DNA of 64,000 nucleotides from Kitasatospora albolonga (GTDB lineage Bacteria > Actinomycetota > Actinomycetes > Streptomycetales > Streptomycetaceae): the NCBI GenBank assembly GCA_002082585.1, contig CP020563.1, positions 1,420,001-1,484,000 on the forward strand, given 5' to 3'. A model generated the notes under the pieces. The model worked only from the letters and a program-made list of their open reading frames with translations, ran no database searches and was not told where the DNA came from. This document shows positions 40,396 to 45,620 of the stretch, one piece after another (positions within the stretch are counted from its first letter, which is position 1; each line of letters begins with the position of its first letter). The position numbers and the translations under genes were made by a program.

Positions 40396-41598
40396 ATGAC
40401 CGCAATGACCCCCGGCTCGAACATTCCTCTCTCCGCCGTCCGTGTGGCGGTGGACGTCGCCGCTCCGGTGCGGCTCGACGTCTCGGGCCTGCTGCTCACC
40501 GCCGACGGCAAGGTGCGCTCCGACGACGACTTCATCTTCTACAACCAGCCCTCGGGCCCCGGTGTGGCCTACCGCTCCGGCGGCGGCTCCGCGCCCGACG
40601 CCATCGTGGTGGACACCGGCGCGGTCCCGCCGGGCATCGAGAAGATCGTCGTCACCGCGAGCCCGGACGCGGCGGGCCAGACCTTCCAGGGCATCGAGCC
40701 CACCGCCACCGTGCGCAACGCCGACGACGGCAGCGCGCTCGCCACGTTCACCCCGCCCCGGCTGGGCGGCGAGACGGCGCTCGTGGTCATCGAGATCTAC
40801 CGGCGCAACGGCGCCTGGAAGGCCCGCGCGGTCGGCCAGGGGTATGCGAACGGGCTGGCCGGGATCGCCACGGACTTCGGTGTCTCGGTGGAGGAGCCCG
40901 CCGCCCCGCCGGTCCCGGCGGCCGCCCCCGTGGCCCCCGCAGCCCCCGTGGACCCGCGGATCGCGCCGCCGGCGCCCGCCGCGCCCCCGGCACCGCCCGC
41001 CGCCCCGCCCGCAGGCGCCGGGAAGATCAACCTCGACAAGGGCCGGGTCAGCCTCCAGAAGAACCAGACCGTGTCCCTGGTCAAGGGCGGCGCCCCGCTG
41101 CTCTCACAGGTCAAGATGGGCCTCGGCTGGGAGCCCGCGTTCCGGGGCAAGGACATCGACCTGGACGCCTCGGTCATCGCGTACGGCCCCAACCGCAACC
41201 ACCTGGACAGCTGCTACTTCGGCAAGCTCACCATCCTGAACGGGGCGATCAAGCACTCCGGCGACAACCTCACGGGGGAGGGCGCGGGGGACGACGAGGT
41301 GATCGTCGTGGACCTGGGCCGCATCCCGGCCGAGGCGACGGGCCTGGTCTTCACGGTGAACTCGTTCACCGGCCAGAAGTTCAACGAGGTCGCCAAGGCT
41401 TACTGCCGGCTGATCGACGCGCGCACCGACGAGGAGCTGGTCCGGTTCGACCTGACCGGCGCGGAGCCGCAGACCGGCGTCATCATGGCCAAGCTCATCA
41501 AGCAGTTCAGCGGTGAGTGGGAGATGACGGCCATGGGCGAGTTCGTGAAGTCACGCACCGTACGGGGCATGGTGAAGCCCGCCGCCCAGGCCCTCTGA
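40396..41598 (+). CDS. Tandem TerD-domain tellurium/stress resistance protein
   Basis: 400 residues. Two TerD domains are joined by a Pro/Ala linker at about 170-205. The first (18-160) has LDVSGLLLTADGKVRSDDDFIFYNQPSGPGVAY. The second (210-400) has the canonical calcium-binding TerD pattern VKMGLGWEPAFRGKDIDLDASVIAY, LDSCYFGKLTILNGAIKHSGDNLTGEGAGDDEVIVVDL. TerD proteins bind calcium and act in membrane-associated stress complexes. The first domain has lost part of the acidic calcium signature. A 12-bp repeat (GAAGGTGGCCGC) lies upstream at about 40327-40360. Confidence 0.9.
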   Translation: MTAMTPGSNIPLSAVRVAVDVAAPVRLDVSGLLLTADGKVRSDDDFIFYNQPSGPGVAYRSGGGSAPDAIVVDTGAVPPGIEKIVVTASPDAAGQTFQGIEPTATVRNADDGSALATFTPPRLGGETALVVIEIYRRNGAWKARAVGQGYANGLAGIATDFGVSVEEPAAPPVPAAAPVAPAAPVDPRIAPPAPAAPPAPPAAPPAGAGKINLDKGRVSLQKNQTVSLVKGGAPLLSQVKMGLGWEPAFRGKDIDLDASVIAYGPNRNHLDSCYFGKLTILNGAIKHSGDNLTGEGAGDDEVIVVDLGRIPAEATGLVFTVNSFTGQKFNEVAKAYCRLIDARTDEELVRFDLTGAEPQTGVIMAKLIKQFSGEWEMTAMGEFVKSRTVRGMVKPAAQAL

Positions 41599-42044: not shown

Positions 42045-43634
42045 TCACCAGGGCCAGTCAGCGCTTGCTCCCGCCTCCAGCAGCGGAATCATGCGGAACG
42101 CGGCGTCGGAAAGCCCCCCGAACGTGTGGCGGTTTCCCCGGCCGGACGGGGCGTGGCCGAGCCGGTATCCGGCCAGGTTCCAGGTGTAGACGGGCACCGT
42201 GTCCGGGACGCTCCGGGTGACATCGCCACGGTGGGTGTACGCGGCCTGCTCGTCGGTGACGACGATGACCCGGTCGTGGCCCCGGTAGTGGCGCTCCACG
42301 GCCCGCGCGGTCGCGGTGCCGCCCAGGTTGCCGAAGCGCTCCAGGACCCTGAGCACCGATTCACCCGTGCGGTACGGGACCGGCGCGCTGGTCGTGCCGA
42401 ACTCCACCAGGTCCGCGTCGGCGGCGCGCAGCGCGAGGGCGGCGCCGAAGACGGCGGCGGCGTCCGCCCGGTTCAGCTGGGAGCGTGCGGAGAGCGGCGA
42501 CCACATGGAGCCCGAGCGGTCGACCAGGACCAGGGTGCGCCCGGGCAGCGCCGGAACCTGGCGCAGCGAGTGGCCGAGCGCCCGCTCCAGCGGGTGGGCC
42601 CAGCGCAGCGAGGGCGCGTGGCGGTAGGCGGCGAGGTAGCGGAAGGGGAACTGCCGGGACGCGGCGACGGCCTCCGGGTCGCTGATGCGTGCTGCGGCCC
42701 GGGCCGCCGCCTCGTCGCTCACCCCGGCCTCGTCGAAGTTCCGGAGGTTGCGGACGAGCGCCATCGTCCCCATGGCCGGGATGACCGCCTCCCAGGCCGC
42801 CGCGTCCATCGGCCCCTGCAACCAGCCGGCCAGCGCTTCCCAGGTCATCCCGGCCTCGGCCAGCCGCTCGGCGCCGCCGTCCCCGGTGACGACCGCGCGC
42901 CGCTCGGCGACCGGCAGCTCCATGAGCGCCCGGTGAGCGGTCAGGGTGCGGTCCCCGGCGGGCGGCACGGCGCTGTCCGGCCGGTGCCTGCGGTCCAGCG
43001 CGTACCGGAACAGCTCGCCCTGCCCGGGCTTGCCCGGGTCGGGCGCGGCGTGCACCAGATTGAGGACGTCCCCGAAGCGGAAGCCCTTGGACGCGGTGTC
43101 GTACTTCAGCAATGCCCGCCCGGTGTAGAGACGCCGTACGGCATCGGCGACGCCCCGCTTGACGGGCTGGGGCAGGGCACGGCCGTACCGGGACGTCCAG
43201 TAGCCGAGCAGCTCGCCCGGCTCGTCGGCACGCAGCAGTACGGAGCCGATGACCTGCCGGTTCGCGGGCCCCTCGGCGCACCCCGCGTCCAGCCGCGCCT
43301 TCACGTACTCCGCACCGCCGACCAGCGAGGCGGTCCGTAGCTGCCCGTCCCGCCGCAGCCAGTGCAGGAGCCCCGCGGTCCAGACCGGGTCCTCGACGGC
43401 GAGGCGCCGCACGAGGGCGGCGAACCGCATGTCGCGCTCCTGGCCACCTTCGTAAAAGGTCTCCTGCGCCACGAAGTTGGCGACGGCGAGAAGAAAGAGC
43501 TCGGACCGGGCATCACGCAGATACCCGGTCCCGCCCTGGCGGTTGACCGCGAGCGCCCCGGTCGTGGCGACGGGCGAGGCGGGCAGGGAGCGGGCCGGAC
43601 GGAGCCGGATGCCGCGCCGGTTGAAGCGAGCCAT
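42045..43634 (-). CDS. rsr: Ro60/TROVE-domain RNA-binding protein (bacterial Rsr)
   Basis: 529 residues. The TROVE HEAT-repeat ring covers about 30-360 (NRQGGTGYLRDARSELFLLAVANFVAQETFYEGG, ALVRRLAVEDPVWTAGLLHWLRRDGQLR). A vWA domain follows, with the MIDAS motif DRSGS at 372-376 (LVLVDRSGSMWSPLSARSQLNRADAA). Ro proteins bind Y RNAs and misfolded RNA, and in bacteria can tether PNPase. The N-terminal RFNRRGIRLRPARSLPASPVATTG is basic and may contact RNA. A Y-RNA candidate ends about 94 nt upstream on the same strand. No pnp gene is nearby. ATG 43634 is preceded by GGGGGAA. Confidence 0.93.
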   Translation of the reverse strand: MARFNRRGIRLRPARSLPASPVATTGALAVNRQGGTGYLRDARSELFLLAVANFVAQETFYEGGQERDMRFAALVRRLAVEDPVWTAGLLHWLRRDGQLRTASLVGGAEYVKARLDAGCAEGPANRQVIGSVLLRADEPGELLGYWTSRYGRALPQPVKRGVADAVRRLYTGRALLKYDTASKGFRFGDVLNLVHAAPDPGKPGQGELFRYALDRRHRPDSAVPPAGDRTLTAHRALMELPVAERRAVVTGDGGAERLAEAGMTWEALAGWLQGPMDAAAWEAVIPAMGTMALVRNLRNFDEAGVSDEAAARAAARISDPEAVAASRQFPFRYLAAYRHAPSLRWAHPLERALGHSLRQVPALPGRTLVLVDRSGSMWSPLSARSQLNRADAAAVFGAALALRAADADLVEFGTTSAPVPYRTGESVLRVLERFGNLGGTATARAVERHYRGHDRVIVVTDEQAAYTHRGDVTRSVPDTVPVYTWNLAGYRLGHAPSGRGNRHTFGGLSDAAFRMIPLLEAGASADWPW

Positions 43635-43727
43635 GGAAATTCCCCCGAACTCCTGATTCCTGAGGGAGGCGCGCGACGGCGCAACGGGGTGCCCGAGATC
43701 CGGGCAGCGAATGCCCTGGGTCGACGA

Positions 43728-43840
43728 CGGAGGACAGTCCGATGCTCTACCCACTTGAGCTACCGGCCGAAGCCGGGCGGGACTCGAACCCGCAACCGTC
43801 AGATCCAGAAGTATCCGTCATCTGCGCACCGGACACCCCG
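43728..43840 (-). ncRNA. Y-RNA-like (YrlA) RNA with a permuted tRNA-like module
   Basis: Read on the minus strand, an outer stem GTCCGGT (43834-43828) pairs with ATCGGAC (43743-43737). It extends through a bulged helix CGGGG (43840-43836) with CC-T-CCG (43733-43728). Inside, in order: a hairpin CAGAT/ATCTG (43824-43820 with 43804-43800); a T-arm GCGGG-TTCGAGT-CCCGC (43793-43777); an acceptor-like stem CCGGC-TTCG-GCCGG (43776-43763); TA; and a D-arm GCTC-AAGTGGGTA-GAGC (43760-43744). This is the order of a circularly permuted tRNA, with the ends closed by a UUCG loop and no anticodon arm. Bacterial Y RNAs are known to mimic tRNA this way and to sit beside Ro genes. The exact ends are not known. 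Confidence 0.8.
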
Positions 43841-44120
43841 GCGCTCGCGCCTCCCGAGATCACCCGTGGCTGCGGCATATTTCAGGGAAAGAAGGAGCCG
43901 CCGCCCTCGCACCGGGAGGTGCATGTCCATGACCTTAGGGAACAACCTCCGCGAGCGCGAAGGGATTTCGGGGCACAGCCGTACGGCGGCACGCGGGGCA
44001 CCGCCCGGAGGGGCCGGGTGGAATCGCCCCCTCCGAACCGCCGACGTCTGCTTGGTAAGAGCAGCGCTCCCCTCAAGAGCTACGCTCGCCCCTCAAGAGC
44101 TACGCTCGCCCCCCCAACAG
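43841..44120. other. 280-bp region upstream of the Y-RNA candidate
   Basis: It should contain the promoter of the Y RNA. On the minus strand TTTCCCTGAAATATG (about 43891-43877) is the most AT-rich segment, but I cannot fix -35/-10 boxes. No gene is seen. The far end holds a 20-bp tandem array. Confidence 0.4.
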
Positions 44121-44129
44121 CTACGCCCG
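44069..44129. repeat. Three tandem 20-21 bp copies at the end of the acidic-protein gene
   Basis: CCCCTCAAGAGCTACGCTCG at 44069-44088 is followed by an identical copy at 44089-44108, then a diverged copy at 44109-44129. The last copy contains the stop codon of the minus-strand gene, so the array probably grew by duplicating the gene end. Confidence 0.9.
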
Positions 44130-45620
44130 CTCCTCCTCGGCCCCCGCGCGCGACCGGGCCTTGAACGCGGCCTTGCGGGCGTCCTTCGCGGCCTTCTTGT
44201 CGCTGTGCAGGCGGCCCATGGCCTCCAGGACGTCGGCGGTGGCCGGGTGGTCGACGCGCCAGACCTCATCGAAGAAGCCGCTGTGCTGGGCGGAGAGGCC
44301 CTCGATGAGGCCCTGGAGCTCGTCGAGTTCGCCGTCCGCGTCCAGTTGGGCGGCGATGGTGTCGATGGCCAGCCAGAAGATCATCGTCTCCGTCGGGGCC
44401 GGGACGTCGGACGCGCCGTGCTCCGCGAGCCAGACGCGGGCCAGGCCGCCGAGTTCCTGGTCGCCGAGGACGGCGCGTACGGCAGGTTCGGCCTCCGCAC
44501 CGGCCAGCGCGAGCGCCTGCTGGCAGTGGAGGCGGCGCAGCGGTGCGCCCTCGTCCGTGCCGCGGGCGGCGGCCAGCAGTTCGGCGGCGGCCGGGACCGT
44601 GCCTTCGGCGCCGCGCCCGGCGAGCCAGAGCTGGATCTCGGCGCGGGCGGCGGCCTCCGGGTAGTGCGCGATGCCGTCGAGGAGGGCGTCGGCGCCCTTG
44701 CCTGCCAGATCGCCGACGGCGGGAGCGTCCACCCCGGCCTCCAGCATCCGGGCCCGGACGCCGTACAGGCCGAGGGGGGTCAGCCTGACCATCCCGTAGC
44801 GGGTGACGTCCTCCTCGTCGGCCCCGGCGGAGGCGTCCGCCGTCTCGCCCTCCTCCACCATCAACGCCTCGTCCACCGGCTGGTACTCGACGATCCCGAT
44901 GGGTTCGAGGAGCCGGAACTGGTCGTCGAGGCGCATCATCGCCTCCGACACCTGCTCCAGGATGTCGTCGGTCGGCTCGCCCATGTCGTCGGGGACGATC
45001 ATCGACGCGGCGAGGGCGGGCAGCGGCACCGGGCCGTCGCCCGCGCCGTTGTCCGCGAGGGTGAGCAGGTAGAGGTTGCCGAGCACTCCGTCGAGGAACT
45101 CCGCCTCGGCCTCCGGGTCCCAGTCCAGGGCGTCGAAGTCGATGGAGCCGTCCTCACCGACGAGGTCGGCGAAGTCGTCCAGGACGGGTGCGGTGGCGTC
45201 GGCGTGCACGGCGTCCAGGCCGTCGAGCCAGATGGAGAGGACGTCCTGCGGGGAGCCGGAGGTGAGCAGCGCCAGGTTCTCGCCCGCGGTGACGGTGCCC
45301 TCGGCCTCGTCCTCCGTACCGTCCGGGTGCTCGCCGTCCTCCGGGTCGGTGACGTCGAGGAGCCCGGTGTCCACGGCGAGCCGCCATGCCTCGCTGGCGT
45401 ACGCCGCGCCGTCCTCGTCGGCGGAGAGGCCGAGGTGCTCGGCCGCTGCCGGGAGTTGCGCCTCCACCAGCTCGCCGCCGGCACCGACCCGCGCGTCGGG
45501 CCCCGCCCAGCGGGCGAGCTTCACGGCCCGCACGAACAGCGGTGCGGCGAGCGCCTCCCGCGCCAGTTCGGCCTCGGCGGGCAGCCGCACCGGCGGCAGG
45601 ATGGGGCGCTCTGCGGACAT
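44121..45620 (-). CDS. Large acidic protein of unknown function
   Basis: 499 residues, strongly acidic and rich in Ala, Leu, Asp and Glu; the last 30 residues are basic (DKKAAKDARKAAFKARSRAG). Seen: RPILPPVRLPAEAELAREALAAPLFVRAVKLARWAG at the start, an acidic linker at about 95-110, and helical repeat-like stretches from about 350 (ARAEIQLWLAGRGAEGTVPAAAELLAAARG). No catalytic motif or membrane segment is visible. It looks like a conserved Streptomyces protein, but I do not recognise a function. It is the gene beyond the Y-RNA/Ro60 pair on the same strand. Confidence 0.8.
   Translation of the reverse strand: MSAERPILPPVRLPAEAELAREALAAPLFVRAVKLARWAGPDARVGAGGELVEAQLPAAAEHLGLSADEDGAAYASEAWRLAVDTGLLDVTDPEDGEHPDGTEDEAEGTVTAGENLALLTSGSPQDVLSIWLDGLDAVHADATAPVLDDFADLVGEDGSIDFDALDWDPEAEAEFLDGVLGNLYLLTLADNGAGDGPVPLPALAASMIVPDDMGEPTDDILEQVSEAMMRLDDQFRLLEPIGIVEYQPVDEALMVEEGETADASAGADEEDVTRYGMVRLTPLGLYGVRARMLEAGVDAPAVGDLAGKGADALLDGIAHYPEAAARAEIQLWLAGRGAEGTVPAAAELLAAARGTDEGAPLRRLHCQQALALAGAEAEPAVRAVLGDQELGGLARVWLAEHGASDVPAPTETMIFWLAIDTIAAQLDADGELDELQGLIEGLSAQHSGFFDEVWRVDHPATADVLEAMGRLHSDKKAAKDARKAAFKARSRAGAEEERA

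Follow-up and report, generated by a model that had tools for sequence, protein, structure and literature searches.

The window, by which we mean the whole stretch of 64,000 nucleotides analysed here, carries on its minus strand a Y RNA with a circularly permuted tRNA-like module beside a Ro60 gene. Our preferred reading, to which we give a probability of about 0.88, is that this tRNA-mimicking RNA belongs to the Y RNAs of the YrlA kind and follows a minimal Y RNA in an array of two genes upstream of Ro60/Rsr; its handle would be bound by Ro60, and a tRNA core lies at its other end. Judged by its sequence, the RNA is a previously unlisted Streptomyces representative of this known kind of bacterial Y RNA. 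It spans about 154 nt (43686..43839, minus strand, with ends that we infer) and was recognised through the Rfam family RF02553, through covariation and through a covariance model of our own, R1. What places it with the YrlA kind is an adjoining TROVE/Ro60 gene, a basal stem made of the paired 5' and 3' ends, and a module of T-arm, acceptor-like stem and D-arm that can be followed in the sequence and in the RF02553 alignment. The RNA is conserved and co-occurs with TROVE genes, and covariation is seen in its handle, in the closing stem and at pair 15-48. The initial annotation had proposed a Y RNA with such a permuted module beside Ro60, and this central claim is borne out by the RF02553 match, by compensatory changes and by the TROVE co-occurrence; its reading of a T-arm, a UUCG-capped acceptor-like stem and a D-arm in permuted order on the minus strand, with no anticodon arm, can likewise be taken directly from the sequence.

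The Ro60/Rsr gene (42045..43634, minus strand) encodes a TROVE protein of 529 aa, identified from Pfam and solved-structure matches. PF05731 matches a short segment, residues 277-337, at E 2.3e-12; the solved structures 9l5y and 9kop of TROVE proteins match at E 8e-28 with the best stretch at residues 247-523, and an NCBIfam search of the protein gave no match. It is the one TROVE match in the window's whole genome. The Y RNA lies in the noncoding stretch that separates this gene from a gene at 44121-45620, for which a Pfam search returned no match. A tandem repeat at 44069-44135 (period 20, 3.3 copies) overlaps the end of that upstream gene and the space preceding the Y RNA array, and a TerD-domain gene (40396-41598, plus strand) is convergent to the Ro60 gene. 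A plasmid search with the Y RNA/Ro60 region found no match.

In a sensitive Rfam scan RF02553 (YrlA) scored 63.5 bits (E 4e-14) over 43821-43718, and the family consensus aligned to the window RNA over its entire length. The covariance-model search that the initial annotation had called for did recover the family, at a score under the gathering score of 69; no Rfam family reached its gathering score over the Y RNA locus, and RF02553 did not reach 69 bits at any of 18 related Streptomyces Ro60 loci. Because 63.5 bits falls below the score for database inclusion, we call the window RNA YrlA-like and not a member of RF02553. With it, the known Y RNAs gain a Streptomyces example that the Rfam threshold misses and whose structure has been tested by covariation. 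Genome-wide the window RNA is the top match of the YrlA model, and the next, at 38.4 bits, falls on adjacent tRNA-Asn genes. Weak sub-cut-off matches of the model also turned up in 13 of 14 control genomes. Adjacent tRNA genes trigger the Y-RNA model where the T-arm of one tRNA is followed by the D-arm of the next, as at L003, where ARAGORN calls tRNA-Asn, and at L192, which resembles tRNA-Leu by sequence. A sequence pattern written for the Y RNA was found in 76 of 150 Streptomyces genomes, and the reversed pattern had no matches.

That tandem tRNA genes give weak YrlA-model matches (L003, in the window's genome) is what would favour explaining the locus as a tRNA gene that has decayed, or as tandem tRNA genes joined by chance. 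We consider this highly improbable: ARAGORN calls no tRNA anywhere in the 64 kb, covariation is seen in the stems of the handle and in the closing stem, and the RNA is conserved beside Ro60. A decayed ordinary tRNA gene, named at the outset as a possible refutation, is rejected because of the covarying handle and closing stems together with the absence of any ARAGORN tRNA from the window. An artefact of tandem tRNAs is rejected for the window on the same ARAGORN result and on covariation, and the weak model match at L003 falls on real tandem tRNA genes. Nor do we find a permuted or decayed gene able to give a tRNA with an anticodon arm, given that the RNA has no such arm and ARAGORN calls none.

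The structure of the Y RNA was worked out by comparing 105 Ro60 upstream regions from Streptomyces, the window included; exact duplicates were removed by hand, and some of the 105 loci are probably from the same species, with Ro60 proteins that differ in 103 of 105. The main alignment, A1, holds 29 of the 69 proximal modules, the omitted ones being loci below L035, those with 3' boundaries that a script left unplaced, poor pairers and L068. The 33 pairs of the revised structure belong to an outer stem of 10 bp, an inner stem of 8 positions, a closing stem of 5 bp, the two arms (T and D) and pair 15-48. In A1, 96.4% of its 957 cells are paired and 11 of the 33 pairs are double-changed, which was reached by 0 of 500 shuffles; when the partners are slid, pairing drops to 35-50%.

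The outer stem, which would be the Ro handle, is formed by GGGGUGUCCG (43830..43839) and CGGGCACCCC (43686..43695), both on the minus strand like all the features that follow; across the 29 sequences 95.9% of its cells are paired and 4 of its 10 pairs show double changes. A conserved GGUGCG (43825..43830) is common to the minimal, proximal and distal Y RNAs of alignments A1-A4 and likely forms part of the Ro60-binding element. The inner stem pairs GAUGACGG (43815..43822) with CCGUCGUC (43723..43730), with double changes in 2 of 8 pairs, 93.5% pairing and one pair that is open in 14 of the 29 sequences, and its 5' strand is followed by a conserved UACUUC (43808..43813). The closing stem of the tRNA-like module, UCUGA (43799..43803, tRNA positions 39-43) with UCGGA (43738..43742, tRNA positions 27-31), sits at the position of the anticodon stem and has double changes in 4 of its 5 pairs. 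A hairpin insertion in the 3' strand (43700..43720) is present in the window, L035 and L036 of A1.

This arrangement replaces the outer part of the structure in the initial annotation, which had drawn a 7-bp plus bulged outer stem (CCGGUGC/GCAUCGG) and a CAGAU/AUCUG hairpin. In A1 these elements are paired in 78.2% of cells against 78.1% in shuffles, and they contain a single double-changed pair, a level that 487 of 500 shuffles also attain. Of the 29 sequences, 5 retain outer pair 11-102, and of the hairpin's five pairs one is disrupted in 17 and another in 22. The two elements do occur in the minimum-energy fold of the interval 43728..43840, whose energy is modest evidence (9 of 200 shuffles were at least as stable). 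That interval, first given as the extent of the RNA, ends too early: the outer stem loses its 3' strand (43695-43686) entirely and the inner stem most of its own (43730-43723). With the revised extent of about 43839-43686 the distance to the Ro60 gene changes from about 94 nt to about 51 nt. The compensatory changes that the initial annotation had proposed to look for are divided among the stems: the outer stem as first drawn shows none of note, the other handle stems and the closing stem do, and in the acceptor-like stem the short form hardly varies and a 7-bp form covaries.

Within the module, the T-arm GCGGGUUCGAGUCCCGC (43777..43793, tRNA positions 49-65), identified from sequence and RF02553, is nearly invariant in A1 and so draws no covariation evidence from that alignment. 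An acceptor-like hairpin, CCGGC-UUCG-GCCGG (43763..43776), links it to U8, A9 and the D-arm GCUCAAGUGGGUAGAGC (43744..43762); both rest on sequence, RF02553 and A1. The D- and T-stem pairs of A1 are nearly invariant, those of the D-stem never varying, so their support is conservation and likeness to tRNA; G18 is missing, as aligned, in 8 of the 29 rows. We omitted the acceptor-like stem from the pair count because the alignment misplaced its 7-bp forms. The inner pairs of the short form are identical in 18 of 29 A1 rows, and the 7-bp form has double changes in 3 of 7 pairs in distal RNAs and in 3 of 7 in class-II RNAs. The window's own acceptor-like stem is a short one of 5 bp and many relatives have 7 bp, and the earlier description of its tRNA mimicry as especially complete has to be withdrawn.

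The Levitt pair of tRNAs joins a purine at position 15 to a pyrimidine at position 48. In the window these are A (43755) and U (43794). We scored the pair in 212 distinct bacterial modules, left from 230 after setting aside 17 in which no D-arm was recognised and one with a poor T-stem, and it is matched in 211 of them: 136 are G15-C48, 75 are A15-U48, and one is G-G. On the best tree of 63 Ro60 proteins, every row of which has A-U or G-C, the pair switches 7 times, 5 of them forced by well-supported branches; the sign test gives p 0.0625, the lowest value possible with 5 independent pairs. Among viral modules with a recognised D-arm the pair is matched in 135 of 145, and 55 more are without one. 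When the modules were rearranged to normal tRNA order with an artificial linker, ARAGORN called 171 of 173 as tRNA, compared with 20 in native order and 0 when shuffled, the whole-letter shuffle being a weak control. The matching at 15-48 suggests selection for a folded tRNA core, beyond hairpins that look alike. In such a fold the T-arm would adjoin the capped acceptor-like stem, the D-arm would dock on the T-loop and be held by the 15-48 pair, and the stem leading into the handle would take the place of the anticodon stem.

The tRNA-mimicking RNA does not stand alone. A second, minimal Y RNA of about 70 nt (43850..43919, minus strand), which has no tRNA-like module, was recognised by a sequence pattern, by alignment A4 and by pair counts. 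The pattern is present in 95 of the 105 upstream regions, and in A4 (41 of 69 sequences) covariation is modest, with 4 double-changed pairs, a number that 5 of 500 shuffles attain, and a count of further pair types lower than any shuffle gave. Many Streptomyces have in addition a third, distal Y RNA, whose T-loop usually lies 350-450 nt upstream of the Ro60 gene and in which 8 pairs are double-changed in A3 (34 of 57 sequences; 0 of 500 shuffles); none was found in the window or in its nearest relatives L006, L007 and L035-L038. A possible promoter of the array consists of GAAATCCCTTCGCG (43969-43956) and CTAAGGT (43938-43932), a region of 43932..43969 on the minus strand picked out by alignment, and similar elements precede the array in all 13 upstream regions aligned; consensus scans for sigma-70 promoters and terminators found none at the locus.

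A single promoter-like region ahead of the array, and a Y RNA that ends about 51 nt before the Ro60 start codon on the same strand, are also what one might expect if the Y RNAs were mainly a structured 5' leader of the Ro60 mRNA, bound by Ro60 for autoregulation. We think such a cis-acting role unlikely. Unlinked Y RNA copies exist in other Streptomyces genomes, as at L190, where one lies between metK and priA, and at L186 and L188, where they lie beside priA, and in Deinococcus, according to PMC7790460 and PMC8058203, the Y RNA tethers Rsr to PNPase.

Our preferred reading, a YrlA-kind RNA that works with Ro60, also draws on how the two are distributed. R1 was built from A1 and applied to 150 genomes of Streptomyces. 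A TROVE match was taken as strong at E < 1e-40, and an R1 match of full length was counted at 49 bits or more; R1's full-length match in the window coincides with the Y RNA by construction. Among the matches listed, 77 of the 150 genomes have a full-length match. These include 76 of 82 genomes with strong TROVE and 1 of 68 others, a co-occurrence that at the level of the genus is partly built in since R1 was made from Streptomyces RNAs beside Ro60. The strong-TROVE genomes with no counted match are G038, G041, G066, G081, G143 and G147; in G066 and G081 the TROVE matches are no more than partial. The exception on the other side is G125 (locus L196), where a strong Y RNA match stands beside TROVE fragments only, which suggests that the Ro60 gene there has decayed. 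Some R1 match at E <= 0.001 occurs in 134 of the 150 genomes; among the matches listed many are partial (positions 23-117, up to 47 bits), and these were excluded from the counts. In a class-wide sample of 296 genomes, 42 have an R1 match at E <= 1e-5 and 38 a full-length one. There the full-length match is found in all 37 TROVE genomes, 15 within Streptomyces and 22 outside the genus, and in 1 of 259 others (G284, 45 bits). The genome lists behind both counts were compiled by hand.

Likely Y RNAs in more than 250 bacterial and phage species were reportedly described in 2014. Our literature search of titles and abstracts found no paper on Streptomyces Y RNAs, and none in which 'Y RNA', 'Streptomyces' and 'Ro60' occur together. 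Permuted tRNA genes of red algae place the T-half ahead of the D-half, with a loop linking the acceptor stem, and are processed to working tRNAs; the window RNA has the same T-before-D order but is without an anticodon arm. The window RNA shares with YrlA of Salmonella Typhimurium (RF02553; PDB 6CU1) a basal stem of paired ends and D-, T- and acceptor-like arms, and differs from it in its GGUGCG/GAUCU handle, the hairpin insertion in the 3' strand, the 5-bp UUCG-capped acceptor-like stem and the sub-gathering score. The Salmonella operon rsr-yrlBA-rtcBA also has two Y RNAs (yrlB-yrlA) beside one rsr gene, whereas in the window both Y RNAs lie ahead of Ro60 and RtcB is encoded elsewhere in the genome, away from the Ro60/Y RNA locus. 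The Deinococcus radiodurans machine of Y RNA, Rsr and PNPase (RYPER) likewise combines a TROVE protein with an adjacent Y RNA.

By analogy with these relatives, we propose that the paired 5' and 3' ends and the GGUGCG/GAUCU internal loop would form a handle gripped by Ro60, and that the tRNA-like end may dock on a partner that recognises tRNA or degrades RNA, as PNPase would be in Deinococcus. PMC8394870 describes the YrlA module as D-, T- and acceptor-like arms, has its basal stem bind Rsr, and reports that DusA and TruB modify the tRNA-like domain; from that work, modification of the window RNA by tRNA enzymes is plausible.

It is also possible that the module chiefly competes for enzymes that act on tRNA, such as anticodon nucleases or elbow-binding proteins, with Ro60 storing or presenting it as a decoy or sentinel. 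We hold this only tentatively. YrlA has been suggested, in PMC7790460, as a competitive inhibitor of an anticodon nuclease; Y arrays occur on viral contigs; and in relatives the same handle bears imitations of different tRNA families, with Leu-type and Glu-type D-halves matching Leu and Glu best in every case. The window's own module, on the other hand, fits no single isotype and lacks an anticodon arm, so that an anticodon nuclease would need to bind the core. The variety of disguises would seem to speak more for a decoy or sensor than for a simple tether.

In the proximal slot, 19 (by a first pattern) or 20 (by a second) of the 105 regions hold a module of class II, in which a D-arm like that of tRNA-Leu is combined with a long variable arm (L103, L060 and L065, for example). 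In alignment A2, of 16 class-II RNAs with ends set by hand in three, double changes affect 4 of the 5 pairs in the variable-arm stem and 12 pairs in the structure as a whole, the latter against 0 of 500 shuffles. The best Ro60 tree has 8 exchanges between class I and class II, with 3 changes of the class-II label forced by well-supported branches. The D-arm types are patterns written after viewing the sequences, and a comparison with the tRNAs of the window's own genome (52 distinct sequences, called in 63 of 66 tRNA places) is less circular. In this comparison Leu is best for 22 of 22 Leu-type D-halves (median 19, second isotype 9) and Glu for 14 of 14 Glu-type ones (15 vs 11), with shuffles averaging about 8. 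The isotype of the Ser/Tyr-type (5) and Gln-type (3) D-halves is ambiguous, and several isotypes fit the 168 modules of the AGCTC type (median best 18, second 16), the form found in the window. A single isotype for the window module is rejected, its D side tying at 17 for own-genome Arg, Met and Lys, and its T side having Arg (18), Trp (17) and Lys (17) in the lead. T-halves do not repeat the isotype of the D-half, and the T side of the Leu-like L103 module scores highest with tRNA-Asp.

Similar diversity is seen beyond Streptomyces. Four genomes of three other actinomycete genera (L271, L273, L276, L279) carry Y heads in tandem, four or five to an array and with modules that differ, and an IMG/VR scan gave at least 120 stretches that match the Y RNA (L290-L409), on viral contigs with one or several matches; of these, 16 contigs chosen mostly for several matches were tested, and all 16 encode TROVE. 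A protein related to Ro60 is also encoded by a jumbo phage (PMC7765460). Rfam, run on 13 loci of variant modules, gave 4 YrlA matches at E <= 1e-4, none above the gathering score. From sequence comparison, then, one handle in the relatives appears to bear modules resembling different tRNAs, most clearly Leu and Glu. We speculate, at a little under even odds, that actinomycete Y RNAs form a repertoire of tRNA disguises, in which permuted modules are exchanged on a single Ro60 handle, each under selection to resemble a particular family (AGCTC class-I, Glu, possibly Gln and Ser/Tyr, and class-II Leu), with repeated switching in the slot, several modules per array and viral arrays with their own Ro60. 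If so, Ro60 would serve to hold tRNA decoys or sensors that are tuned to isotypes, and if the disguises are functional, the binding partner of the tRNA-like end becomes directly testable through module swaps. The isotype-diverse and class-II modules would be new, if not already in print. Among the unlinked Y RNAs, those of L186 and L188-L191 have a Ser/Tyr-like D-arm, and L190 additionally carries the Streptomyces-metK RNA (RF03063). A Glu-like unlinked Y RNA lies beside bacA in two Streptomyces genomes (L181, L197).
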